The notes beneath the pieces were generated by a model that did no database searches, was not told the origin of the DNA, and was given only the letters and a program-made list of their open reading frames with translations. Positions 3,106 to 47,035 of a stretch of 51,235 nucleotides of DNA are shown here, in pieces. Both the position numbers and the translations under genes were made by a program. Numbering within the stretch: position 1 is the stretch's first letter; every line of letters begins with the position of its first letter. The DNA is from a virus, in IMG/VR virus record IMGVR_UViG_3300050821_002043, positions 1-51,235 of that record. The stretch is one strand, 5' to 3'.

Positions 3106-3272
3106 GCTTTTGCTGCAAAACTCCCTTCCGAGACTTCGCCAGTGCAAACTTGGCGTGTAACCGGAAATTAAAGAGTAGGCACAAACGCCGGGGGCCAAAG
3201 AAAGAACCAGTATGGTGCTCTATCTGCAATGCTTGGCACAGAAAAAATAAGGAGAACTGGGTAAAATGTTAG
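3102..3272 (+). CDS. Small Cys-containing basic protein (56 aa)
   Basis: Starts at ATG 3102 in an ATGA overlap with the previous stop; a longer frame from 3003 is unlikely because it would overlap the upstream gene extensively. The sequence is basic, with FCCK near the start and a CSICNAWH motif (CxxC plus His) and a terminal Cys, a possible small zinc-binding module. Function unknown. It overlaps the start of the glycosyltransferase gene by seven bases. Confidence 0.55.
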   Translation: MSFCCKTPFRDFASANLACNRKLKSRHKRRGPKKEPVWCSICNAWHRKNKENWVKC

Positions 3273-5068
3273 TCTGCTTCCCTTACAGTCTAGTAGATCA
3301 GGCACTAGCCGCAAAACTAGCCACTTGGATTCGGGAACTAGGCCGGAATGAAGGGCATTCGTGTTTAATAGTCAGGGACGTTAGATGCGATGAGCATCCT
3401 TCGATTGAACAGGATTTAGGATCGGTTTTTGATAAAGTAGAAACGATCAGGTACTCCGAACAAATAGACGGCTGGCCGCAGGGGGCGAACCTAATGTTTC
3501 AGGCCGCTGCTCGTTATATCGAGCACAAATATAGAACCCCGTTCCTATGGCTAGAGGCCGATTGCCTCCCATTGAAATCTGGATGGGTAGCAGAGATTAG
3601 TGCCGAACACAAAAAAGGTGGCAAGCCTTTTACGGGATTCAAAGTACAAGTCCCTAACGTCCCTATCCACATGTCAGGCATCGGCTGTTATCCGTGGGAT
3701 TTATGTAACCATGCGGGGACGATCTACCAGGCAACGGAGATAGCATGGGATGTACACGCCGCCCCCCAGATTGTACCAAGGATGCACCCTACTTCGTTGA
3801 TAGCGCACAGATGGAAATACCCGCCGTTCAAAAACCAAAGCGAAGTGGACAACCTTTTAGGTCAGATCGGGAACGCAGTTATATTCCATTCGGATAAAAG
3901 CGGGACTCTCCTTGATTTCCTTAGGGAGAGGCGGGCACCCCAACAAAACCCCGTACAGGTCAACCTAGAGCGTTCCAGCCCCGTTACAGACATCCTTATA
4001 AAGACGTATTCTAAAGATTTGCCTTGGCTGGCGTGGTGCTTGCGGTCGATAAATAAGTTCACTTCGGGGTTCCGCAAAACGATCATCATATCACCAGACG
4101 ACGATATGGGTTCGACGGATAAAATGGGCTACGATTGGCAGCAAAGATTTGAATACGGGATGGGAAATTCTAACCAAGATTTTTACCTTTCCCAGCAGGT
4201 GTTTAAGATGTATGCCGATACTTTTACAGACGCTAATTTCATACTTCATATCGACTCGGACACGATCTTTACCTGCACAGTAACCCCCGAAACCTATTTT
4301 CGGGACGGTAAGCCAGTAATAATGATGACCCCGATTGATCAAGCTCACCCTGACGAGCAACAAGCGTGGCGTAAGGTGATGAACAAGTTTATGGGTAAAC
4401 CTTCTCAGTTTGAGTTTATGCGAAGATTCCCCTTTGTTTACCCCCGGTGGGCATATGGATCGCTACGGGAGTTCTGCCTGCAACGACATGGGATAACGTT
4501 AGACAAATACATCATGTCCCAACCATACCGGGAGTTCTCGGAGTTTAACTGCATGGGATTTTATCTATGGGAAAATCATCGTGACAAATTTAGCTGGGTT
4601 GATACGTCAAACGTTCCAGAAAAAGACTGGCCTGAGTTAACGGTTGACCAGCGATTCTCTCATAACCCAATTCCGACTGAGGAATGGGATAAGATTTTAG
4701 GTGGTAGCGAAGTAATTGCTGACAGGAATAAAAACCCGTCCACGGGGGATGAAACGCTATCACCTAAAGCTTTGCCTGTCTGCTCGGCACCGCAAGCACC
4801 AACGGTTACGAGGAGAAAACCAAATCGAAAGACTCTGGGGAGTGAGGACAACAAAAGGTCGGAACAGATAAGCCCAAACGGAACTCCTGACCCCTCACTC
4901 CCCAACATCTTTTCTGAAGATCAACTCGCTAAAATCAAAACTACGGAGGATTTGATTATTTTTGGCAAATCCGATGATTTCATAAAACAGCTATCCAAGT
5001 ATTTTACTGATCCTTTATCCAAAGGACGGATTATCAAAAAGCTAAAGAGCTATCCAATAATCAAGTAA
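3266..5068 (+). CDS. Large two-domain glycosyltransferase-like protein with an embedded repeat
   Basis: 600 residues. Two GT-A-like segments are visible: an N-terminal domain with EAD at 97-99 inside FLWLEADC, and a second domain (about 243-480) with IDSD at 329-332 inside ILHIDSDTIF, the metal/nucleotide-sugar binding DxD type. It should transfer sugars from activated donors to an unknown acceptor. Residues ~503-520 (LPVCSAPQAPTVTRRKPN) are encoded by an in-frame L-type junction repeat at 4774-4826, and the linker just after it contains an 11-bp inverted repeat. Residues beyond ~540 form a separate helical tail. It begins a four-gene cluster with overlapping starts and stops. Confidence 0.7.
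   Translation: MLVCFPYSLVDQALAAKLATWIRELGRNEGHSCLIVRDVRCDEHPSIEQDLGSVFDKVETIRYSEQIDGWPQGANLMFQAAARYIEHKYRTPFLWLEADCLPLKSGWVAEISAEHKKGGKPFTGFKVQVPNVPIHMSGIGCYPWDLCNHAGTIYQATEIAWDVHAAPQIVPRMHPTSLIAHRWKYPPFKNQSEVDNLLGQIGNAVIFHSDKSGTLLDFLRERRAPQQNPVQVNLERSSPVTDILIKTYSKDLPWLAWCLRSINKFTSGFRKTIIISPDDDMGSTDKMGYDWQQRFEYGMGNSNQDFYLSQQVFKMYADTFTDANFILHIDSDTIFTCTVTPETYFRDGKPVIMMTPIDQAHPDEQQAWRKVMNKFMGKPSQFEFMRRFPFVYPRWAYGSLREFCLQRHGITLDKYIMSQPYREFSEFNCMGFYLWENHRDKFSWVDTSNVPEKDWPELTVDQRFSHNPIPTEEWDKILGGSEVIADRNKNPSTGDETLSPKALPVCSAPQAPTVTRRKPNRKTLGSEDNKRSEQISPNGTPDPSLPNIFSEDQLAKIKTTEDLIIFGKSDDFIKQLSKYFTDPLSKGRIIKKLKSYPIIK
4774..4826 (+). repeat. Junction repeat, L type, inside a coding region
   Basis: GCCTGTCTGCTCGGCACCGC, AAGCACCAACGGTTACG, AGGAGAAAACCAAAT. 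It is the fullest L consensus in the window, but here sits in frame within the glycosyltransferase ORF rather than at a gene border. Its first 13 bases equal 2790-2802. Confidence 0.85.
4837..4903. repeat. 11-bp inverted repeat in the glycosyltransferase linker
   Basis: GGGGAGTGAGG at 4837-4847 and its exact inverse complement CCTCACTCCCC at 4893-4903, 45 bases apart, immediately after the embedded L repeat. Confidence 0.75.
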
Positions 5069-5757
5069 TGCTACTCTTAGTCCAGACCTACACGGCAGCT
5101 AAGGAAACCTTAATAAGGCATTGGCCGTATTTCCTTAAATCAGGGGCGGATGAAATCTGGATTGTTACAACCACCGATGACAACGATCTATCTTGGTATC
5201 CAAAAGATGTTACCATTGTTAAAATAGGGAACAACTCTTACATCAACGGCGGACATTTACCGCAACGGTTGATCGACACGCTCAAAACAGGGCTAGGTAA
5301 CAAGACTAAATTCCAGCATATTTGTATCTGCGAATACGACACAGTGTTTTTTCATCCGCTCCCGATACAACGAATGGAGCACGCCGTAGCCGGTTACTAC
5401 GCTGGCGGTCAGACCTGGAATAGTAAAGCAAGCGCCTTCTATCATAATCCTTGGGTATTTTTCAGAGAAGCTGCAATCAAGTTTGTAGAAAAAGGACAGG
5501 AAGCTATTAACGAAGGGGTCTGCGGTTACCAAACTAACTCGGCGTTTGCAACTCCTGAAGGAAGCCCGGACGTTTTCGTTGGGTACGCGTGCGAGCACTA
5601 CGACATACCTATTCAGGGAAACGTATGGACGGAATATAGCCGAAACGATCTAAAGGGTAACGGTTACTTGGAAGAAGCGCGACAAGCATACCTAGGGGGA
5701 TACGATGTGATTCATGGTATTAAGACTAAGGAAGAATTAGAGTACATAACCAGATGA
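5068..5757 (+). CDS. Glycosyltransferase-like protein (229 aa)
   Basis: The N-terminus MLLLVQTYTAAKETLIRHWP followed by DEIWIVTT resembles GT-A folds, and CEYDTVFFHPLP (88-99) carries an EYD in place of the DxD. Its TAA/ATG junction with the upstream glycosyltransferase overlaps by one base, so it is co-translated. It probably acts in the same glycan pathway. Acceptor and sugar are unknown. Confidence 0.6.
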   Translation: MLLLVQTYTAAKETLIRHWPYFLKSGADEIWIVTTTDDNDLSWYPKDVTIVKIGNNSYINGGHLPQRLIDTLKTGLGNKTKFQHICICEYDTVFFHPLPIQRMEHAVAGYYAGGQTWNSKASAFYHNPWVFFREAAIKFVEKGQEAINEGVCGYQTNSAFATPEGSPDVFVGYACEHYDIPIQGNVWTEYSRNDLKGNGYLEEARQAYLGGYDVIHGIKTKEELEYITR

Positions 5758-6299
5758 GTAAATGGATTGTGGTTAGCCGATACAGAGAGCCGAACATGGA
5801 GTGGCTTAATCAGCTTGACCGATATTCTTGGAACGTATTCGTAGATGAAAAAGGGGATGATGAATCCCGAAACCATCCTGGTAGAGAAGCTTCAACCTAT
5901 CTCCAGTGGATTGTGGATCGCTACGATAGAATAGCTGGTGAAGAAGTCGTATTCTGCCAAGCCCAGCCGTTCAACCACGACCCCGATTTCCTGTCTCATA
6001 TCCACGATGAAAAGAAAATGTGGTTTGGCGAAATACATAAGTGTGATAAACATGGTTACCCGGCTTGCGATTTTTGCCCGCTCCATTCATGGTCGGATGT
6101 ATTCTGTCTGCCTAAACTGGAAGAGTACTCGTTTGTAGCGGGCGCTCAGTACAGAGTGTTTGACGAACAGATACTAGCCCAATCCCACGACTTTTGGAAA
6201 GCATTGCTATCCTTAACTAAGTTGAGACACAAATACAACATGAGCGCGTATATCCTTGAACGCCTCTGGCCGGTTATACTTGGGATTGAACTTGTATGA
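5754..6299 (+). CDS. DUF3431-like protein (181 aa)
   Basis: The segment HPGREASTYLQWIVDRYD, then VVFCQAQPFNHDPDFLSHI, matches the pattern of DUF3431-type proteins (NxGRE..TYL...YD...FxQgxPFxH), which accompany glycosyltransferases in metagenomic phages and bacteria and are thought to act on glycans. The HKCDKHGYPACDFCPLH insert is Cys/His-rich. ATGA overlap with both neighbours places it in the glycan operon. Confidence 0.55.
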   Translation: MSKWIVVSRYREPNMEWLNQLDRYSWNVFVDEKGDDESRNHPGREASTYLQWIVDRYDRIAGEEVVFCQAQPFNHDPDFLSHIHDEKKMWFGEIHKCDKHGYPACDFCPLHSWSDVFCLPKLEEYSFVAGAQYRVFDEQILAQSHDFWKALLSLTKLRHKYNMSAYILERLWPVILGIELV

Positions 6300-6829
6300 G
6301 TATGCTTAATGACCTAGGAGTAAAATACGGTACAGATCAAAGCACTCTTAGGCACTGCTATCTATCTCTTTTTGAGTTACTATTCGCTCGATTTAACCGC
6401 AACCTTTATGTCATTCTACTAGAGATTGGATTTCAATTCGGGTGCAGTAGTAGAACGTGGAAAGAGTATTTCCCATACGGTCACATTACTGGAATTGACT
6501 TGGTAGATAATCACGCCGAGGGACTGGATAAAACCATTTACGGGGACGCTTATAGCTCCGCAGTATTTGAACAACTACCTAAAAATCATTTCCATATCAT
6601 CATTGAGGACGGATCGCACGCCGAACAAGATCAATCTTACGCGGTAACGAACTACTCCCACTTGCTTACACCGGACGGGATATTGATAATAGAGGACATA
6701 GCTAGCCTGGGGGTTACTGACCAGCTATCTAAGGTTGTGCCATCAGGATTTAATCACGCTGTTATCGACCTTCGGACAGTTAACCCAGGAGTCATAGATA
6801 ACATCTTGTTCTTAGTGTGGAGAAAGTAA
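6296..6829 (+). CDS. Class I SAM-dependent methyltransferase
   Basis: 177 residues. LEIGFQFG (42-49) is the SAM-binding glycine motif I, GIDLVD (66-71) motif II, GDAY (83-86), then EDGSHAEQD (104-112) and LTPDGILIIEDI, typical of the sugar/macrolide O-methyltransferase-like group whose N-terminus begins with a GVKYGTDQS...YLSLFE segment. It would methylate a small or glycan substrate made by the neighbouring transferases (inference). The ATGA overlap with the upstream gene supports the start. Confidence 0.75.
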   Translation: MSMLNDLGVKYGTDQSTLRHCYLSLFELLFARFNRNLYVILLEIGFQFGCSSRTWKEYFPYGHITGIDLVDNHAEGLDKTIYGDAYSSAVFEQLPKNHFHIIIEDGSHAEQDQSYAVTNYSHLLTPDGILIIEDIASLGVTDQLSKVVPSGFNHAVIDLRTVNPGVIDNILFLVWRK

Positions 6830-7068: not shown

Positions 7069-7478
7069 AAATCTGCATTATTGATCCATCTAGTCAGATA
7101 TATACTACGGTTGGATATTGGATATTTACCGAACCAAATAACACAGGAGAACTAATAATCGAAGTATCTAAAATGACCGATTGGAGATTTGAGTGGGCTG
7201 TAATCGGACATGAACTAATTGAGGCGATGTTTTGTTGGTTATTCGGAATAACAACCGAGGAGTGCGACAAGTTTGATGGTAGATGTGAACGGGAGTTTGC
7301 ATCAGGAGATAGATGTAAATCAATCGAGCCGGGATTCGACAAAGAATGTCCTTACAGAATAGGACATATATTGGGAGCGGCTTGGGAGTATGCGTGGATA
7401 CATTTATCGTTAGCAAGTTGGAGTGAGTACGACGAAGAGTGTAATAGATTAATGGGTATTACTCCAAGTATTTTCTAA
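7065..7478 (+). CDS. Phage protein with HELIE motif (137 aa)
   Basis: H49-E50-L-I-E53 in WAVIGHELIEAMFC, followed by GITTEECDKFD and a later AAWEYAWIHL helix, fits a recurrent phage family with HELxE...FD. The HE pair recalls zincin-type metal sites, but the canonical HExxH is absent, so peptidase activity is not claimed. The last 20 bases overlap the convergent ATP-grasp gene. Confidence 0.6.
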   Translation: MKICIIDPSSQIYTTVGYWIFTEPNNTGELIIEVSKMTDWRFEWAVIGHELIEAMFCWLFGITTEECDKFDGRCEREFASGDRCKSIEPGFDKECPYRIGHILGAAWEYAWIHLSLASWSEYDEECNRLMGITPSIF

Positions 7479-8835
7479 TCTGATCATAGCGATTTAGAAT
7501 AGAAGATCGGTAATCAAGCGATAAAAAATCGAACTGTGGTCGGTAGTATATCTTCTCGAAGTGAACTTTCCTAACCCTCTCATACATAATATCTATTGCT
7601 CCAAGCGTAGAGTCGCTGGCTGCCGTAACGCAACCTATGAAATCGGACTCAGAGGTAGAGACTATGTGTTTATTTTCTTTTCTGACATGATACAAGAAAA
7701 GATTGTTATCTATCGACTCATCCCATCTTACGGGAATACTACCTAGGGGATCATCGGTATCTTCCATATCACCTTCGTAATTGAATAACCTAACACTAGT
7801 TCCATACGGATTTAGTATAGGGCTTCGGGAGTTCATTACATCCTCGAAGAAACTAGATACGAACGGATCTCCTATATCTCTCATGCCTATCTCGCAATAT
7901 AATCCATCGAATCCGAATCTATTCCCGGCGAACTCGGTAAAGTAGAAGTCGTTGCCGTCAAACAACAACCCGGCATCGTAAATGGACATTCCGGGTTGTT
8001 GTTTAGCCATTTCGTAAATCACATCGGGAAAGGCGATGCGGTTAATATTGCAATCCAGTTCAGTTCTTACCGATAGACACTGGTTCCCGCCTTTTTGAGC
8101 CCCTATATTACCAGACCCATAAGACTTATTTTCAAACTCTGCTAAAGTATATATCGGCTCTCCATTCCAACACAGCATTATCGGAGTTACTTCCAGCGCG
8201 TTAGGAATCTTCTTTTCAAGAGTAAACCCGTTTTTCTCGTACCCCCTTTTGTCGTTCTCCAGAGCCTCTATCATTATTTCTTTCTCGATGTCCAAGTCAT
8301 CAGAGTGGGGAACTATTGTTTTACCCTCGTTGCCGTTACTTTTGACAACGAAAATATCATTGGAATCTGCTATGAAGGCGATTCCATCGGACACCTTTTT
8401 GAACTCATGGTGTTCAGCGACCTTGATTTTCCCATCGTAGTATTCTTCAACGAAGTATTTGGCAAACTTCCTATCCTTTTCCAGTTGGCGATACTCTTTG
8501 GTAGGGAACAGACCGTTTCTAAATCCCATTCGCAATATGTCCTCAGATATTTTGTAAAGGTGGTTGTCGTCAAAGAAGATAAAATAATCGTCCTGTTCTG
8601 ATTTCGGAACCCCGCGCAACATTGATATAACGGATTCTGGAGAACGTTTATCTAGTATTCCGTCGTACAAGGATATTCTCTCTTTCTTATACTCAGCATC
8701 TTCGGATCTTAATTCTGGTAGTCGTATGAACGAACGGTCTTTAATGAACCCAACAACAACATTCTGCCCTTCCTGTAACAAATGAACAGCTAGGGGAAGC
8801 GAGTACGATGAATCGGTTATAAAAACGTAAGTCAC
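7459..8835 (-). CDS. ATP-grasp ligase (PurD-like fold)
   Basis: 458 residues. Residues 163-173 (VVKSNGNEGKT) give the ATP-grasp lysine and glycine-rich loop, 242-250 (GNIGAQKGG) the second loop, and TEFAGNRFGFDG (300-311) the metal-binding Glu/Asn segment near the active-site end. The overall pattern resembles PurD, but the N-terminal domain lacks the usual GGREH motif, so the substrate is not assigned. ATP-grasp enzymes join a carboxylate to an amine or thiol with ATP. The start overlaps the racemase stop by four bases, so the two are co-translated; a joint role in attaching a D-amino acid is possible. Last gene of the late unit. Confidence 0.7.
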   Translation of the reverse strand: MTYVFITDSSYSLPLAVHLLQEGQNVVVGFIKDRSFIRLPELRSEDAEYKKERISLYDGILDKRSPESVISMLRGVPKSEQDDYFIFFDDNHLYKISEDILRMGFRNGLFPTKEYRQLEKDRKFAKYFVEEYYDGKIKVAEHHEFKKVSDGIAFIADSNDIFVVKSNGNEGKTIVPHSDDLDIEKEIMIEALENDKRGYEKNGFTLEKKIPNALEVTPIMLCWNGEPIYTLAEFENKSYGSGNIGAQKGGNQCLSVRTELDCNINRIAFPDVIYEMAKQQPGMSIYDAGLLFDGNDFYFTEFAGNRFGFDGLYCEIGMRDIGDPFVSSFFEDVMNSRSPILNPYGTSVRLFNYEGDMEDTDDPLGSIPVRWDESIDNNLFLYHVRKENKHIVSTSESDFIGCVTAASDSTLGAIDIMYERVRKVHFEKIYYRPQFDFLSLDYRSSILNRYDQIRKYLE

Positions 8836-9461
8836 GATAATAATTTCTTGATTACGATCTCGTACGGATCAACGAACTCCTCGTACGATCTCATTACCAA
8901 CGGTAGCTCCGTACAGCCCAGAATAATCTGTTTAGCTCCGCGTTGCTTTAACTCGTTCATAATAGCGCCTATCATAAGCCTGTCTGGTTCGCAGTGTTTA
9001 CCTGACATTACGCGGTCAATTACCGTATCCACTCGAACTTGTTGATCGTCGGTGCAATAAATAGCTTCTCCGTATAATTTGTTCAGCCTGGAAGTGTCGG
9101 AGCAAATTACCCCAAACGAATCTCCATTCAGTGATTGAACAGCCAATTTAGGCATATCCAATATATCTGTACCGTCATGCCTAAGTCGATGTAGAAATAG
9201 ATACGCGGTGTTACATGCCATTACTATTTTATAAACTCCCGATCTTCGAAGGATGTTGACTCCATACTGTAAATCTTTTAGGAAAACATCGGCGTTAATC
9301 ACTCCAGTATTATTCATCCCCCGTGAAGTTAAATTAACGAATGTAATTTCAGGAAAGTCTGAATCTTCTTTAGATCCACGTTTCTGGCATTCCTCCACAA
9401 CCATACTCAGAAAACGCACACCCGCTAAAGCTCCCATGCCGCCCAGAATACCAATTCTCAC
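8832..9461 (-). CDS. Aspartate/glutamate racemase-family protein
   Basis: 209 residues. GGMGALAG (7-14), ACNTA with Cys83 and GCTELPL with Cys183 are the two-cysteine active-site motifs of cofactor-independent Asp/Glu racemases (RacX/YgeA-like). It would interconvert L and D forms of an acidic or related amino acid in the cytoplasm. The length is slightly under the usual ~230. Its start overlaps the end of the upstream virion gene by four bases and it feeds directly into the ATP-grasp gene, an unusual position at the end of a structural operon. Confidence 0.8.
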   Translation of the reverse strand: MRIGILGGMGALAGVRFLSMVVEECQKRGSKEDSDFPEITFVNLTSRGMNNTGVINADVFLKDLQYGVNILRRSGVYKIVMACNTAYLFLHRLRHDGTDILDMPKLAVQSLNGDSFGVICSDTSRLNKLYGEAIYCTDDQQVRVDTVIDRVMSGKHCEPDRLMIGAIMNELKQRGAKQIILGCTELPLVMRSYEEFVDPYEIVIKKLLS

Positions 9462-11161
9462 GGAGTAGTAGATCGTTTAGGCCACTTAGCGCCTAGTCTT
9501 GTTCCGAATGGTTTGGGTGAGGTTGCTCTACCGCTGGATTTAGGGGGTTTTGGCTCTTGTTCTTCTCCAATGTGCGCCCCGGTAGCTCCAAGTCCTGCCA
9601 CTATTAAGCCTTTGACAATCTGGGTTGCTTGAGATGCTCCAGCAGTTCCTTTCAGTTGATCGTAAACGTATTTGATTGGCCCCTGTAAGGGGATAGGCCC
9701 TATACTGGCGCTGTACTCGCCTATACCAAGCTTGGGCTTTTCTGGAGTTCCCTGATCTGGACTCCAAGGAACCGGACGGCCCTTCCAGTCTTTGCCGGAA
9801 AGGACTTCAGATATTCTTTCAACGCTAGGGTTGAGTTTTCCAGAGGCGTAATCTTTACCAATGTCATAAACCGCCTTAACCCCTGTTTCCCTGGGCTTCT
9901 GGGCGAATGATTGTCCAAATTTTTGGGCTAGTCTTTGTTTTACACTATCAGGAGCGTACTCCCAGTAAGTTAGGGAAAGGACTCTGGACATGGCCCGTAA
10001 TTCAGTTGTAATACCGGGTACTCCGGCCTCAAGTCCATATCCCTTGAATTGCATCCAATCCCCCTTATTGGGGTCTGTAAAATTGATTTTCTGGTTGCTT
10101 TTAAGAAGTTTCAATAATGCTGCGTTAGCTGCCAAGAATCCTATCCTAGTAGTCAGATATTGAGTTGCCCCTCCTAATCTTTTCCAAGCCACTGCGCGTT
10201 GACCAGGAGTAAGGTTTTTCCAATTAGCGAAATCCATCGGAGTTTTAACTATTTCCGATACTCTATTGATTTTGGATTGAGTGAGTTTAGGCCCAAAAAG
10301 ACCACCCCCACCAAGATTAGCGATCTTTCCTTTCCCTGCCCCGGTCGCATCATTGGCCCATTCAGCATATTCCCTTCCGTAATCGAGTATTTCGGCGGCG
10401 CTCATATTGGGAGTAACTTTCTTTTTCATCGCTGCTTTCCACATTTCAAACCGAATTGTTCCAAGCATATCCCATGCTCTACTTGCCGAACCAAGAACGT
10501 TTCTTAATACTGGAGTTTCTCCGAAACGCTTTTCCAGCCAGCTAGGAACACCACTTCCTAAAATGCCAGTTGGTTTACTCCCGGACCCAGCCTCAACCTT
10601 GCTATCCATCGCGATTCTGAACCAGGGATCGCGCTCCATTTCTGCCATCCTGTTCCGGTGAAAATCCCTACCATAAGCCCCCCTGTAAACATCTCCCAAG
10701 CCCTTAAAATACCTGCCCCATTCGGTTGGATGGAAAAGAAGATCACCGGCATGAGATACCGGGAAAACAATCGCGTGCCCAATAGTTTCAAGTGAACGGC
10801 CTAGATTCCAAACCGTATTAGCTACTTTTGGCCATACTCCAGTTCCGGCATATTTATTCAATTCCTTGGCGTACCGAATCATGTTCTGACGGTCACTGTT
10901 GCGCCTCCACATTTCGTTATACATGTCGTCATAAATCCGACCGAACGAAGTCTTGGTTTTTCTACCCCCGATTAGATCGCTAATCCAAGACTGGGGCGCT
11001 CTACCACCAAAAAAATGATCGTTAATCGCCTTGGAAGTACCAACAAAGTCCTCAAAATTGGTGTTATCTTTTGCCCACTTCCAAATAATAGGTCGATCCT
11101 CGTCTTTAACCGGGGAATTTCCCTTATACTCTCCACCTACCGGACATGGATTTATAGGCAC
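9458..11161 (-). CDS. Large putative virion/ejection protein (567 aa)
   Basis: GTG start at 11161 with a strong GGAGGAAAG ribosome-binding site lying inside the end of the preceding gene (10-base overlap). Helix-rich, with Trp/Arg-rich amphipathic stretches (FEMWKAAMKKKV, EYAEWANDATGAG) and a hydrophobic IVKGLIVAGLGATGAHIG near the C-terminus followed by a basic tail. Size and position after other large late genes suggest an internal virion or DNA-ejection protein, as in podoviruses. No enzymatic motif seen. The family is not recognised with confidence. Confidence 0.55.
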   Translation of the reverse strand: MPINPCPVGGEYKGNSPVKDEDRPIIWKWAKDNTNFEDFVGTSKAINDHFFGGRAPQSWISDLIGGRKTKTSFGRIYDDMYNEMWRRNSDRQNMIRYAKELNKYAGTGVWPKVANTVWNLGRSLETIGHAIVFPVSHAGDLLFHPTEWGRYFKGLGDVYRGAYGRDFHRNRMAEMERDPWFRIAMDSKVEAGSGSKPTGILGSGVPSWLEKRFGETPVLRNVLGSASRAWDMLGTIRFEMWKAAMKKKVTPNMSAAEILDYGREYAEWANDATGAGKGKIANLGGGGLFGPKLTQSKINRVSEIVKTPMDFANWKNLTPGQRAVAWKRLGGATQYLTTRIGFLAANAALLKLLKSNQKINFTDPNKGDWMQFKGYGLEAGVPGITTELRAMSRVLSLTYWEYAPDSVKQRLAQKFGQSFAQKPRETGVKAVYDIGKDYASGKLNPSVERISEVLSGKDWKGRPVPWSPDQGTPEKPKLGIGEYSASIGPIPLQGPIKYVYDQLKGTAGASQATQIVKGLIVAGLGATGAHIGEEQEPKPPKSSGRATSPKPFGTRLGAKWPKRSTTP

Positions 11162-12705
11162 GGTCTTTCCTCCAATTCTTTTAAGAACCGATCTCTAATT
11201 TGGTCGTGCGTTATTTTGCTTTTCCGTTCATTAAACGCTTTCTCAATCGCACCCGACAATTTTGTTTTTACTCCATTTTCAGTATCAATCGAATATCGTA
11301 CCCTATCGGCAACCTTTTCCATAACCGGCCTTACTGATTCTGGGGCATCTTTACCTGTATTCTGTAGCCAAGCTTCCCGCAAACCATCGGCAGTAGTTAA
11401 ATCTACCGGGAAAGACCCTTGTAGTCCCCGACCTGCCTGCGCCCAATTACTTTTAACGGTAGCGATTGGCCCTTGGTGAAAATCAGTTAAATCCTTAAAA
11501 GCGTTCTCATACGATTGCTGTTTTTCGATATTATCTGGATTGGCCTGAAGTTCGCGGTAAGCGGCATCTTTTCGAGCTTTCAATCTGGCCTCTTGGAATC
11601 TTACAACGGCGGCATCGTTAACGGGATCAAACGTTCCACTCATTACCCTTGAAACTGATTGATCGACAATCCCCTCTCCTTGTTGCTCTACTATTTTCTG
11701 CCCCCTAGTAGCTAAATCTTGGACTGATGCCCCTTCTCCCGGCGTTATTGAACCCAAATCCCCGGTAGCCATGCGTTCTTGGGTGTATTTATTTGCAACA
11801 GCAGAAACAACCGGCTCATCGTGAACAGGAACGGCAGTATAACCCTCTTGCTGAAATTCCCCATGTTGTACTGGACTAGGGGGTTCTGCCGCAGGCGCAC
11901 TCTCCGGTACACTTACTGCGGCAGCCGCCGTTGATGCCAGCGGAGATTCTACTTGCCGTACTTCTTCTTGCCCCGGCCCTTGGGTTTCCATCCCCCCTTT
12001 GACTTTTTCACTTGAAATCACCTCCCCTGGTGTTACTGCGTTTCTCTTTTTTAGTTCGGCTAAAGTTTCGGTAACCCCCACGGGTTCTTTGGGTAACACT
12101 GATTCCGTTGGTGCTTCTCCCACTTCGGGGACAGGCCGCACGTCTTGTATCGGCGGTTTTTCTAAAGCTGGCGCTGACCCCCTAACTCCACCGATTTCCC
12201 CTAATAAATTAGCGGTTATTGGAACCACCCCGTTCCACCATTCTTGACTAAATGGCTGAGAGGTTTGGATTTGTTTAAGTTGCGCTGCGGTTTGTAACCC
12301 GCCCCCTAGTAATTTATGTAGCGTATCGGGACTCCATGGATCAGCCGCCATGTGAAGAAAATCCGGTATTCCAGTAACAAACCCTTTGGCCGTATCAGCA
12401 ACCGAATTTAACGGTTTCTGTATAGCGGGGTCGCGAATAACCTCCCTACCCTCCAAAGTATCGGTCTGAGTGCCAGATTTAGGTAAAAACGAGATAGCGG
12501 GCATCCTGGACGCGGCAATGGCCGTTCCTGAGAGTGCTTTATTTATCTCTGGGGTAGGAGAAGGTTTAGGAATGTCGGGCAGAGTGGCGTAATCCCCTAA
12601 ATCCGCAGCAGCTTTCTTAGCATCTGGCAGGGCCGCGTAGTCGCCTAAATCGGCTTTTGACTCTACATCGGGTAGTGCGGAGTAATCTCCAAGATCAACA
12701 GGCAT
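11152..12705 (-). CDS. Putative internal virion protein with DLGDY repeats (517 aa)
   Basis: The N-terminus contains four related units, the first VDLGDYSALPD and then DLGDYAALPD and DLGDYATLPD, separated by short Ala/Lys linkers. The middle is Pro/Glu/Val-rich and probably disordered; the C-terminal ~200 residues are helical (ARLKARKDAAYRELQ, EKQQSYENAFKDL). Repeated DLxDY/DLxDL acidic motifs occur in phage internal proteins and may be assembly-docking peptides (inference). Overlaps the next gene, so the two are translationally coupled. Confidence 0.55.
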   Translation of the reverse strand: MPVDLGDYSALPDVESKADLGDYAALPDAKKAAADLGDYATLPDIPKPSPTPEINKALSGTAIAASRMPAISFLPKSGTQTDTLEGREVIRDPAIQKPLNSVADTAKGFVTGIPDFLHMAADPWSPDTLHKLLGGGLQTAAQLKQIQTSQPFSQEWWNGVVPITANLLGEIGGVRGSAPALEKPPIQDVRPVPEVGEAPTESVLPKEPVGVTETLAELKKRNAVTPGEVISSEKVKGGMETQGPGQEEVRQVESPLASTAAAAVSVPESAPAAEPPSPVQHGEFQQEGYTAVPVHDEPVVSAVANKYTQERMATGDLGSITPGEGASVQDLATRGQKIVEQQGEGIVDQSVSRVMSGTFDPVNDAAVVRFQEARLKARKDAAYRELQANPDNIEKQQSYENAFKDLTDFHQGPIATVKSNWAQAGRGLQGSFPVDLTTADGLREAWLQNTGKDAPESVRPVMEKVADRVRYSIDTENGVKTKLSGAIEKAFNERKSKITHDQIRDRFLKELEERPCL

Positions 12706-42869: not shown

Positions 42870-42967
42870 GAAAACAAAATATCTCCTACCGACACGCTTG
42901 TATAACCAAAACGGTTGTGATTATAAGCCTTTTATTTACAGTAGTTTATAACTTATTTTATCTATGA
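42866..42967 (+). CDS. Small membrane peptide (33 aa)
   Basis: Overlaps the upstream stop and downstream start, both as ATGA. C-terminal half TVVIISLLFTVVYNLFYL is a single hydrophobic segment. Role unknown. Confidence 0.45.
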   Translation: MRKQNISYRHACITKTVVIISLLFTVVYNLFYL

Positions 42968-43329
42968 GCAACACGGACGACACAGTTCCTAGTCACGCGC
43001 GGAGACAGGCTAGGCTTCTGCACAATCAACAAATCCGAGAACGCAATCGAGCTAAATCTAAAAATCGTGCTTCATCACCTCACGGGAACGGCGGAACTAG
43101 AGTAATGTCGCCAACAGGCTTCGACATCAACAAGGAAGAAAATGATCTCCTAAATTTCATTAATGATAATCCTATTCTGCAATCGTGCTTATACGATATT
43201 GATATGATGCCAGAACAACTAATTAGGGGCAACATGCTGTTTCAGCAACGTACGGGGCGTAAATCAAAGGCATGGTGTGACATGTTAATTATCGCTTCAC
43301 ATTTTCGGGACGCATTAAGGAAACCATAA
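42964..43329 (+). CDS. Hypothetical early protein with repeat N-terminus (121 aa)
   Basis: The N-terminus MSNTDDTVPSHARRQA is encoded by the R repeat and nearly matches that of the SLOG protein at 1185. After it comes a basic segment (LLHNQQIRERNRAKSKNR), then a unique C-terminal domain (LLNFINDNPILQSCLYDI, FQQRTGRKSKAWCDMLIIA). Unrecognised. Confidence 0.6.
   Translation: MSNTDDTVPSHARRQARLLHNQQIRERNRAKSKNRASSPHGNGGTRVMSPTGFDINKEENDLLNFINDNPILQSCLYDIDMMPEQLIRGNMLFQQRTGRKSKAWCDMLIIASHFRDALRKP
42970..43010 (+). repeat. Junction repeat, R type
   Basis: Identical to 1191-1231 except for seven consecutive central bases (TTCCTAG versus GTGATAA). Includes TCACGCGCGGAGACAGGC. Confidence 0.85.
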
Positions 43330-44135: not shown

Positions 44136-44513
44136 TGCGCTTTGTGCGGAGATACGAAGTCTAAAAAGCGCGAGTGCTATTACTACGCCGCGCAAGATAA
44201 GTTTGATCCTGGATATACTCCGCGATTGACCTATGATGAACGCTGCGTCTTGCAATCTGGATTCAATCCAATATGCGAAAACCGTTCGGAGTGTAGAAAA
44301 CGCTATCAGGAAATTAAAAAACCTAAGCGACTTATGGGCGATATTCTCGAAGAGTGTCTGCACCATCTGAACAAGAATCGAAGGAATCTTCGCTGCCCTA
44401 TATGCAATAGACCAGTGTTCGGTGAAACCGCCGCGCCTTGTATTGACTGCATCTGTGGAAAGCCTGTCCCCGACGCGCAAGAAACACCAACGGTAACGGA
44501 GGAAAAACAATGA
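44097..44513 (+). CDS. Zinc-cluster protein with repeat-encoded ends (138 aa)
   Basis: N-terminal MTPQTNALSEQTG is R-repeat-encoded, followed directly by CALCG; C-terminal PVPDAQETPTVTEEKQ is L-repeat-encoded. Between them lie CALC, CENRSECRK and a treble set CPIC...CIDCIC, suggesting two small zinc sites. The gene core is thus enclosed by inverted-repeat ends. Function unknown. Its stop overlaps the ATG of the transposon-interrupted gene. Confidence 0.6.
   Translation: MTPQTNALSEQTGCALCGDTKSKKRECYYYAAQDKFDPGYTPRLTYDERCVLQSGFNPICENRSECRKRYQEIKKPKRLMGDILEECLHHLNKNRRNLRCPICNRPVFGETAAPCIDCICGKPVPDAQETPTVTEEKQ
44462..44512 (+). repeat. Junction repeat, L type carrying RBS and start
   Basis: GCCTGTCCCCGACGCGCAAG, AAACACCAACGGTAACG, GAGGAAAAACAATG. 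The GGAGG and ATG inside it initiate the next gene (44510). Confidence 0.85.
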
Positions 44514-44602
44514 ACCTATCTCATCAAGACGAATTTACTTTGATGTCAATGATTCGTGGTCACGAACAAAAGATTCAAATGGACTCAATCAATCATCGTT
44601 CC

Positions 44603-44630
44603 GACATCTGGGTAGTGGGCTACTTTGATT
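44603..44630 (+). repeat. Left target duplication and terminal inverted repeat
   Basis: GACATCTG target copy followed by the 20-bp left inverted repeat of the transposon. Confidence 0.9.
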
Positions 44631-44679
44631 GATTTATGGAAATTATACAGGAGTGCCCGAAAATAGTTGAAGAAAGTTC

Positions 44680-44708
44680 TTGCAATAGCCAAGCAACTTC
44701 GGTATTGT
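44680..44708 (+). promoter_or_regulatory. Candidate promoter inside the transposon
   Basis: TTGCAA (44680-44685), 17-base spacer, TATTGT (44703-44708), six bases before the ATG of the first passenger gene. Reasonable sigma70-like match. Confidence 0.4.
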
Positions 44709-44714
44709 AATCGC

Positions 44715-44981
44715 ATGAACAAAGAAAACCGCGGAAACAAGGTGAGAAATTGGACAGTTAAAATGGGCGATCCTGGCCCGAATCATAACGCTTCTAAGCG
44801 GAAATGTCAGCTTTTCAAAACAGCGAGAGCAAAAATAGGGTGCGCGCACTTCAAGGCTGGCGAAATCGTGGCAGTTGACTGGTGCGCGAGTAATCCAATA
44901 GGCAAAGAGTGGTATACCTGCACGAAGGACGGTAAATCCGCCGTATACCCGGAAGATCACCTGACCAACTTTGTTCTTTGA
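44715..44981 (+). CDS. Transposon passenger protein 1 (88 aa)
   Basis: ATG 44715 chosen over an upstream start at 44667, which would precede the promoter-like -10 box. C-terminal half FKAGEIVAVDWCASNPIGKEWYTCTKDGKSAVYPEDHLT suggests a small SH3-like barrel. Unrecognised. Inside the transposon. Confidence 0.5.
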   Translation: MNKENRGNKVRNWTVKMGDPGPNHNASKRKCQLFKTARAKIGCAHFKAGEIVAVDWCASNPIGKEWYTCTKDGKSAVYPEDHLTNFVL

Positions 44982-44983
44982 GC

Positions 44984-45391
44984 ATGAGCTTTCACTCTGA
45001 GGATATGTCAGACGAATACGGCATCAAAGATCGTGAAATGATGCGACTGGAAAAAAAGGCTTTAGCTGCCTTGCTGGAACACTGGCCCAAGATTCACAAA
45101 GCAATTAGAAGCGACATTCAACTCGCCGAGGCTGCCGAGGATATTGCCGCACTCGCAGAATTGGAACGCATCGCCAGAAGCTTCAAATGCGCTACCTTCG
45201 ATCAAAGCGAAATCACCCCGGAAATACGCGCCAAAATGAACGAGGGAAGGCGAAAAGCCGAGCAAAGCGAGATGAACGTTTACGATGCCTCAAAAGACAG
45301 TGATAAGTGTCCAACGTGCGGGAGTGTTCTCAGTCGTGTTGATTATCACGGCTTCGGCAAACGTTGCACCATTTGCAACACAATATCATGA
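44984..45391 (+). CDS. Transposon passenger protein 2, zinc ribbon (135 aa)
   Basis: ATG 44984 (TTG 44978 is a possible alternative). Helical middle (DIQLAEAAEDIAALAELERIA) and a C-terminal CPTCGSVLSR...KRCTIC ribbon. The zinc ribbon just before a DDE transposase recalls the InsA-type DNA-binding partner of IS1, although the protein is longer. Stop overlaps the transposase ATG as ATGA. Confidence 0.55.
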   Translation: MSFHSEDMSDEYGIKDREMMRLEKKALAALLEHWPKIHKAIRSDIQLAEAAEDIAALAELERIARSFKCATFDQSEITPEIRAKMNEGRRKAEQSEMNVYDASKDSDKCPTCGSVLSRVDYHGFGKRCTICNTIS

Positions 45392-46233
45392 ATCGGCTTA
45401 CCGTAGAACAAAGGACAAGCATCGTTGCGTGTCTCGTGGAGGGCAATTCCCAGCGCGCAACGTGCCGTATGACGGGCCTCGCCAAGAAAACCGTGTCGAG
45501 ACTAGCGGTGGAGCTTGGCGAGGCATGTGAAAGGTTCGCCGACAACATCATGCGCGATCTGCCATGCACGCAGATTCAGTGCGATGAAATTTGGAGCTTC
45601 TGTTACGCCAAGCAAAAGAACGTTCCAAAGCATCTAAAAGGCTCTGGCGCTGGCGACGTTTGGACGTGGGTAGCGATTGACCCCGATACGAAGTTAATAC
45701 CCGCGTGGTATATCGGCGACCGCACAGCGCAGAGCGCCTACCCGTTCATGCGCTCGATTTCCAAGCGGTTGAAGAACCGCGTCAAGTTATCCACAGACGG
45801 GCATCGCGCCTACCTAATCGCGGTCAAGGCGGCATTCCATCTGCAAGAGATCGACTTCGGTATGCTCCGCAAGATTTACGGAGAAAACACGCTGGAGGGC
45901 AAATACAGCCCCGGCGAGTGCATTGGCACAGAGCGCACGATCATTAGCGGACAGATCAGCAAAAGCGAAATCTGCACAAGCCACGCTGAGCGCCAGAATC
46001 TCACGATGCGTATGCAGATGCGGCGTTTTACACGGCTCACAAATGCCTTCTCGAAAAAGATCGAGAATCACCGCCTCGCGTGCGCTTTGCATTTTGTTCA
46101 CTACAACTTTTGCCGAATCCATAGCTCGTTGCGAATAACTCCGGCGATGGCCGCTGGCCTCAGTGACCGCGTTTGGGAGATTTCGGACTTGGTAGAACTT
46201 TTAACCGCCGAGGAGATGGCCCTTGCAGCGTAA
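45388..46233 (+). CDS. IS1-type DDE transposase (281 aa)
   Basis: Start ATG 45388 in ATGA overlap with the upstream gene. N-terminal HTH (SIVACLVEGNSQRATCRMTG, 11-30). Catalytic triad Asp66 (QCDEIWSF), Asp137 (LSTDGHRAY) and Glu201 (SHAERQN) and the closing ACALHFVHYNFCRIHSSLRI segment match the single-ORF IS1-like transposases common in environmental bacteria. Cuts and joins the element ends. Confidence 0.9.
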   Translation: MNRLTVEQRTSIVACLVEGNSQRATCRMTGLAKKTVSRLAVELGEACERFADNIMRDLPCTQIQCDEIWSFCYAKQKNVPKHLKGSGAGDVWTWVAIDPDTKLIPAWYIGDRTAQSAYPFMRSISKRLKNRVKLSTDGHRAYLIAVKAAFHLQEIDFGMLRKIYGENTLEGKYSPGECIGTERTIISGQISKSEICTSHAERQNLTMRMQMRRFTRLTNAFSKKIENHRLACALHFVHYNFCRIHSSLRITPAMAAGLSDRVWEISDLVELLTAEEMALAA

Positions 46234-46543
46234 CCACACCGCCAGTGCCACGGCAATCTGGACATCGCCTGCCCTCGCCATAGCGGCCAAACGGGAGAAG
46301 CCCGTTGCCATCGCAACGCTTGCACGCGCTCCTTTGCGTAATCTTCTCAGCCTTGGCAACGACGCCGTGCGCGATCTGGTTCGCGTCCGGCTTTCGCTTG
46401 CCGCGCTTCTTACCTTTCGGCCAGCCTCCCAGCTTGGCGTTGGCGCGAGCTGCGCGGGTCTTGGCTCTCGATCTGGCCTTGCCACCTTCCGCGCCGATCA
46501 GAGCGCCTACGTTAATTTCGTTTCCACAGTGCGGGCATTTCAT
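46160..46543 (-). CDS. Convergent zinc-ribbon protein inside the transposon (127 aa)
   Basis: N-terminus MKCPHCGNEINVGALIG followed by an Ala/Lys/Arg-rich linker ending in LGGWPKGKKRGKRK resembles small CPHCG...LGG(R/W)P proteins often found with mobile elements. The C-terminal CKRCDGNG and CPDCRGTG pair is a DnaJ-type zinc motif. Overlaps the transposase end by 74 bases on the opposite strand. Function unknown. Confidence 0.55.
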   Translation of the reverse strand: MKCPHCGNEINVGALIGAEGGKARSRAKTRAARANAKLGGWPKGKKRGKRKPDANQIAHGVVAKAEKITQRSACKRCDGNGLLPFGRYGEGRRCPDCRGTGGVVTLQGPSPRRLKVLPSPKSPKRGH

Positions 46544-46584
46544 CCCGCAAACTTAGCAACCTAATCAATGACATGCGCGAACAA

Positions 46585-46612
46585 AATCAAAGTAGCCCAC
46601 TACCGACATCTG
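46585..46612 (+). repeat. Right terminal inverted repeat and target duplication
   Basis: 20-bp right inverted repeat (46585-46604) followed by the second GACATCTG copy (46605-46612). Confidence 0.9.
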
Positions 46613-46870
46613 CTCCAACCGGCACAAAAACGCCGACACCAGCATCCTAGCCAACCCCTCAGCCACTTCTAAGGAGAAGAACAAACAAACGATTCTAGCG
46701 GCCTTACAGCGCGCGGGCGAGGCAACCTGTGAACGATTGGAATCTCTAACCGGCCTCTCGCACCAAGCCTGTTCTCCAAGAATTTCTGAACTCCGAAGAG
46801 ACGGTAAGATTGTTGTCTGCGGACGCGGGGTTACTAAAAGTGGGAAGCAGGCACGTATTTATAAAATTGT

Positions 46871-47035
46871 ATGAATGATAAAACAGAATTGATTAATGAT
46901 CTAATCCGGTCTTGCGACGATTTGATAGAATATTGCTATCACTCCCTTTTCCTAAAGACATCAGACATGGACGCTCTTTCTCGGATTAGAATACGTCTAG
47001 AAGCAGAATTGCAGGAAAATACAAAAACGCCGTGA
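46871..47035 (+). CDS. Small early protein (54 aa)
   Basis: ATGA overlap with the wHTH gene end. Helical (ELINDLIRSCDDLIEYCYHS, DALSRIRIRLEAELQ). Ends KTP, in a segment AAAAACGCCG like that in several junction repeats. Unrecognised. Confidence 0.5.
   Translation: MNDKTELINDLIRSCDDLIEYCYHSLFLKTSDMDALSRIRIRLEAELQENTKTP

Follow-up and report, generated by a model that had tools for sequence, protein, structure and literature searches.

Insertion sequences of the IS1 family have ends that begin GGT..TG and target duplications of 8-9 bp, and the transposase of classical IS1 is made by an insA/insB' frameshift and has an N-terminal zinc finger. Siguier et al. (2009), as cited in PMC7986276, reportedly discussed the IS1595 family with regard to IS1 and to where insertion sequences end and transposons begin. 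IS-like elements that carry passenger genes have been termed transporter insertion sequences, or tIS, and the broad kind of element described below is already known in this form (PMC7986276). In Tn7-like transposons, the cargo includes defence systems (PMC8649781).

The element considered here lies in a virus contig, IMG/VR record IMGVR_UViG_3300050821_002043, and the whole stretch analysed (51,235 nucleotides) is called the window. The intact element occupies 44611-46604 (1994 bp). Its parts and flanks are as follows:

44510-44602, plus strand: 5' part of the interrupted phage gene (joined-flank ORF)
44603-44610, no strand: left copy of the target-site duplication, GACATCTG, the same as 46605-46612
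44611-44630, plus strand: left terminal inverted repeat, GGTAGTGGGCTACTTTGATT, 20/20 complementary to the right end
44680-44708, plus strand: candidate weak sigma-70-like promoter (TTGCAA, 17 nt, TATTGT), read from the sequence
44715-44981, plus strand: passenger P1, 88 aa (ORF)
44984-45391, plus strand: passenger P2, 135 aa, with a C-terminal zinc-ribbon-like CPTC...CTIC (ORF; phage relatives)
45388-46233, plus strand: DDE transposase, 281 aa, helix-turn-helix and RNase H-like domain (Pfam DDE_Tnp_IS1, invariant residues, model)
46160-46543, minus strand: accessory protein, 127 aa, zinc ribbon with SRAKTRAARANAKLGGWPKGKKRGKR and the DANQIAHGVVAKAE motif; overlaps the 3' end of the transposase gene
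46585-46604, minus strand: right terminal inverted repeat, 20/20 match with the left end
46605-46612, no strand: right copy of the target-site duplication, GACATCTG
46613-46874, plus strand: 3' part of the interrupted phage gene (joined-flank ORF)

The initial annotation had delimited 44603-46612, and this extent is exact, since it runs from one target duplication to the other; the perfect 20-bp repeats and the exact 8-bp duplication that it described are likewise present at the positions listed. A perfect repeat of 20 bp together with such a duplication is far beyond what chance can account for, and the same pattern is seen again in relatives, at differing target sequences. The flanks, when joined with one copy of the duplication, form a single ORF of 120 aa, and the insertion therefore split a phage gene. 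In a sister IMG/VR record, 100% identical over 11,236 bp, the element occupies the same position; this speaks against a chimera or a one-off assembly error, even if related samples may underlie both assemblies. The contig is metagenomic, but with an exact duplication and intact ends, which are a biological signature, and a second record identical over 11.2 kb, an assembly chimera is extremely improbable. A search for phages with an empty site, made with the terminase-like ORF, returned only the sister record.

The transposase matches Pfam PF03400 (DDE_Tnp_IS1) at 32.1 bits, above the cut-off of 24.1, and the NCBIfam IS1 model NF033558 clearly at 54.5 bits, under the cut-off of 100. The putative catalytic residues D66, D137, and E201 are invariant across 32 sequences. 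In an AlphaFold2 model (mean pLDDT 78), the first core strand contains D66, D137 follows directly on a later strand and E201 sits in a helix, with low confidence at residues 198-220 around E201. The best PDB fold matches of the model are DDE transposases and integrases. The gene had been called a DDE transposase from the outset, and these matches bear this out.

The likeness to IS1 extends to the GGTAGTG ends, which follow the GGTnnTG pattern, and to the 8-bp target duplication. The differences lie in the protein and in the gene content. The transposase is encoded by one continuous ORF of 281 aa without an insA/insB' frameshift, and its N-terminus, in the model and the ORF, consists of three helices from residue 6, with no paired CxxC and no zinc finger. 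The element also carries cargo and a separate accessory gene. With a score below the NCBIfam IS1 cut-off, a single ORF and no N-terminal zinc finger, the element therefore belongs to a separate cargo-carrying group. Thus, of the description as an intact IS1-type transposon with passengers in a phage, the IS1-like DDE transposase, the passengers and the phage-like genome stand, but plain membership of IS1 does not. IS1595 is also distinct, since a Pfam search of the transposase gave no match to DDE_Tnp_IS1595 (PF12762). Among annotated phages, a search with the transposase gave a single match (29%), an unannotated relative in Brevundimonas phage vB_BpoS-Gurke (L229, ON529850.1 174809-175666), which sits in a stretch of almost 6 kb nearly without annotated genes.

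Relatives are numerous. Among 84,980 bacterial and archaeal species, each represented by a single genome, we counted 467 loci that encode a relative, and in IMG/VR 206; from each of these two sets, 80 loci were kept. Complete elements with matching ends and an 8-bp duplication could be delimited at 117 of the 183 loci examined. Removal of repeats left a working set of 107, or 106 distinct elements once L149 was dropped as a duplicate of L147. These 106 span many phyla, are 1.3-5.0 kb long and have differing 8-bp duplications. Members share GGTAGTG ends and 8-bp duplications, carry swappable cargo and encode a small accessory protein. Their most frequent end is GGTAGTGGGTCAGTTTGA, of which the end in the window is a variant. 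Like tIS, the element in the window combines IS-type ends and a transposase with passengers that are not conserved with the transposase. It differs in that its family is very large, has cargo that can be swapped and conserves an accessory protein, and in that its own branch resides in phages and carries phage genes.

The cargo is highly diverse, with 223 singletons among about 420 ORFs, some of which are spurious. In what is here called the bacterial branch (all elements outside the subclade of the window, some of them in IMG/VR contigs), 150 cargo ORFs include PD-Lambda-2_B (13), P63C (10), RmrA (about 7), capP (6), SocA/Panacea (6) and an SDH-type protease (5), as well as BglII endonuclease, methyltransferases, HigB, Fic, HipA and PIN. 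The control was 75 flank ORFs of the same loci, where the PADLOC matches were confined to methyltransferase, mad2 and one transporter, and PD-Lambda-2, RmrA and capP were absent; P63C, SocA and HTH_3 are absent from the 25 of 57 Pfam families listed for the flank controls. Compared with its flanks, the cargo of the bacterial branch is therefore enriched for defence and toxin-antitoxin genes. Defence systems among the cargo are shared with Tn7-like transposons; compared with these, the element in the window is far smaller and has a single DDE transposase. One virus contig (L025:2206-3622) has the arrangement of the bacterial branch: after the same end come a bacterial-type accessory protein and a ClpP/SDH-like protease.

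The accessory protein also belongs to the family. A small basic protein with a DxNxLAxxIV and/or GRLGGLKGGKARA motif was found by pattern search in 94 of the 107 elements, a few of these matches possibly arising by chance. Searches with it gave no convincing match in Pfam and none in NCBIfam. Its gene usually sits just inside the left end, whereas in the subclade of the window it is antisense at the right end, where it is conserved in L004, L005, L006, L023, and L114. With a dN/dS of about 0.25 over the mostly non-overlapping N-terminal part, the gene is under purifying selection, as judged from sequence comparison. Three small genes had been taken as carried inside the element; P1 and P2 are indeed passengers, but the antisense gene is this subclade-conserved accessory gene and not cargo.

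In the subclade, a zinc ribbon and a basic GGWPKGKKRGK stretch precede a DxNQLAxxIV motif. A profile comparison of the subclade form with that of bacterial elements gave a probability of 93.7% and an E value of 1.9e-7 over 24 columns only, so the apparent link between the two branches consists of a 24-column motif. In virus contigs, the zinc-ribbon/basic module also occurs as a free-standing gene, accompanied by neither recognised ends nor a transposase. L031 has the accessory motif on its own. Small free-standing genes with NAKLGGWPKGK and a zinc ribbon are present in L231, L232, L235, L236, L238, L242, and L246, and at least L231 also has a DxNALAHxVV motif. The protein of the phage branch may thus be a fusion of the zinc-ribbon/basic module with the family motif. 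Most likely, it acts as a DNA-binding accessory or regulator.

In the transposase tree, the window, L004, L005, L006, L023, L031, and L114 form a subclade (SH-aLRT 99). Six of these seven are in IMG/VR virus contigs, and the seventh, L031, is in a bacterial (Verrucomicrobiaceae) MAG. Could the element be an ordinary bacterial tIS that jumped recently from the host chromosome, with bacterial cargo and an incidental presence in the phage? The family is abundant in bacterial genomes (467 loci), and L031, in its bacterial MAG, is a 67% relative. However, the best copy in the 84,980 bacterial and archaeal genomes is only 67% identical; the closest copies (91%, 88%, 69%, and 67%) are all in IMG/VR contigs, some of them phages that are not recognisably related; the 18-bp end was found in none of the 387 Verrucomicrobiota genomes tested; and the cargo of the bacterial branch looks different from that of the window, where P2 is related to phage genes. 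A recent arrival from the host chromosome is, on this evidence, improbable.

Relatedness between the phages was established by direct protein comparison because hallmark Pfam and PHROG searches gave nothing: Terminase_6N had no match in the window, and large window ORFs of structural size had none in PHROGs, although homologues exist in G008 (L192) and G009 (L193). The phage of the window has many ORFs in common with G003 (L005) and G008, among them two that were called putative terminase and putative portal on their size, position and motif. G005 (L023) and G006 (L114) are distant relatives, while G002 (L004), whose transposase is 91% identical, is not recognisably related. This distribution suggests that the element moves between unrelated phages.

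Elsewhere in the window, two 47-bp stretches (1185-1231 and 42964-43010), 91% identical, lie at the starts of two different ORFs and encode MSNTDDT...HARRQA, a shared N-terminal module of phage early genes. The ORFs at 7459-9461 and 3266-6829, as read from their translations, presumably resemble ATP-grasp enzyme, amino-acid racemase and glycosyl/methyltransferase-like proteins.

The passengers differ between close relatives. The initial annotation had proposed to see whether passenger genes are constant between copies; they are not, since close relatives each have different ones. The sister record alone has a copy with both the same ends and the same genes, and there it occupies the same site; the other copies have the ends, the transposase and the accessory gene in common, but not the passengers. 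P1, which has an alternative TTG start at 44667 that would give 104 aa, has no Pfam or PHROG match and no relatives beyond the sister record, so that a phage origin is for P1 no more than possible. P2 overlaps the start of the transposase by ATGA and has relatives in phages L192 and L193, with amino acid identities of 84% and 83% over the aligned parts and dN/dS values of 0.14 and 0.09, respectively. A search of annotated phages with P2 gave no match.

It might be argued that the P2-like genes in L192, L193, and L194 are leftovers of earlier insertions, P2 being a transposon gene that spread to phages. L194 is a decayed copy in which about 2.5 kb take in a lone terminal repeat, a P2-like fragment and a truncated transposase, and this speaks for the explanation. 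In L192 and L193, however, neither transposon ends nor transposase remnants are found near the gene, even allowing four mismatches. P2 was not found in any other element of the family, and the P2-like gene of L192 lies near homologues of window genes from around 36-41 kb, in a neighbourhood common to the phage of the window. The leftover explanation is thus unlikely. A preferable reading of these comparisons is that at least one of the two true passengers, P2, was derived from the early region of related phages, the direction of capture probably being from phage to transposon.

Beyond P2, sequence comparison shows phage relatives of the cargo only partly in the case of L005 and weakly in that of L004. 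Immediately upstream of the P2 relative in L192 lies a gene that contains pieces similar to L005 passengers, and an L004 passenger matches the phage family phrog_29001 (E 1e-11) over 36 residues; the L006 passenger has no match among annotated phages.

Another possibility is that P1 and P2 are not cargo and serve transposition or its regulation. Their closely spaced or overlapping starts and stops place them in one operon with the transposase, which would fit such a role, yet they are not conserved even where the transposases are 88-91% identical, and this makes it quite improbable. The same arrangement, passengers and then transposase in one direction, suggests one transcript from the left end. 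The candidate promoter at 44680-44708 has an imperfect palindrome between its hexamers; it is below the threshold of a promoter scan, which found nothing above chance in the window. The left ends of L004, L005, L023, and L114 have strong TTGACA-16-TATNNT-like sites, several with a palindrome between the hexamers, and promoter-like sites with up to two mismatches occur in 14 of 106 left ends compared with 1 of 106 inside transposase genes. By analogy with IS1, one might guess that a left-end promoter is repressed by the accessory protein or the transposase.

Taken together, the element is quite probably an autonomous cargo transposon of an IS1-like family, from a branch that is now phage-resident, with exchangeable cargo and with P2 obtained from phages. 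The transposase would most likely bind the 20-bp ends, cut them and join them into a new target, leaving the 8-bp duplication. The passengers, which lie ahead of the transposase on the side of the left end, are probably read from a promoter in that end and co-translated with the transposase, while the antisense gene at the right end would supply the element's own small basic zinc-ribbon protein. Exchange of passengers, presumably by recombination, would leave relatives with similar ends, transposase and accessory gene and other cargo. The proposed consequence is that short blocks of phage genes may be carried between phage genomes.

Some loci may record such events. An ORF of L005 begins MNRLSTEDRTR, a copy of a transposase start, and is possibly the scar of a cargo exchange at this point. 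Phage contig L027 (G016) has two tandem transposase-less versions at 9925-11400. Both have a right end, a transposase stub and an accessory gene of 47 aa (the start of the accessory gene); the first of these mini-elements has both ends and is 819 bp long. Exact 20-bp ends without a recognisable partner end or transposase occur at L019:1412, L020:28, L021:12342, and L024:231, and are possibly remnants. A more specific reading, which we put forward tentatively as it may well not hold, is that the autonomous, phage-resident lineage serves to capture and exchange early genes of phages. Its cargo would be swappable, its transposase-less cassettes would be moved in trans, and its accessory protein would have arisen when a small zinc-ribbon protein of phages was fused to the motif of the family. 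If so, the lineage would represent, on the phage side, a family whose bacterial members carry defence systems.

No description of this transposon family was found in open-licence papers. Judged provisionally against those papers, four things appear to be new: how large and coherent the family is, the accessory protein, the defence genes in the cargo, and a branch that resides in phages and carries phage genes. Compact and widespread, the wider family carries defence and toxin-antitoxin genes, and its diagnostic end and diagnostic accessory protein make it possible to set the limits of such cargo islands to the exact base in draft genomes. Phage genomes are mosaics, and a standing question is by what route short blocks of genes pass from one phage to an unrelated one; a phage-resident transposon lineage loaded with phage genes would, if confirmed, be a concrete vehicle for such transfer.
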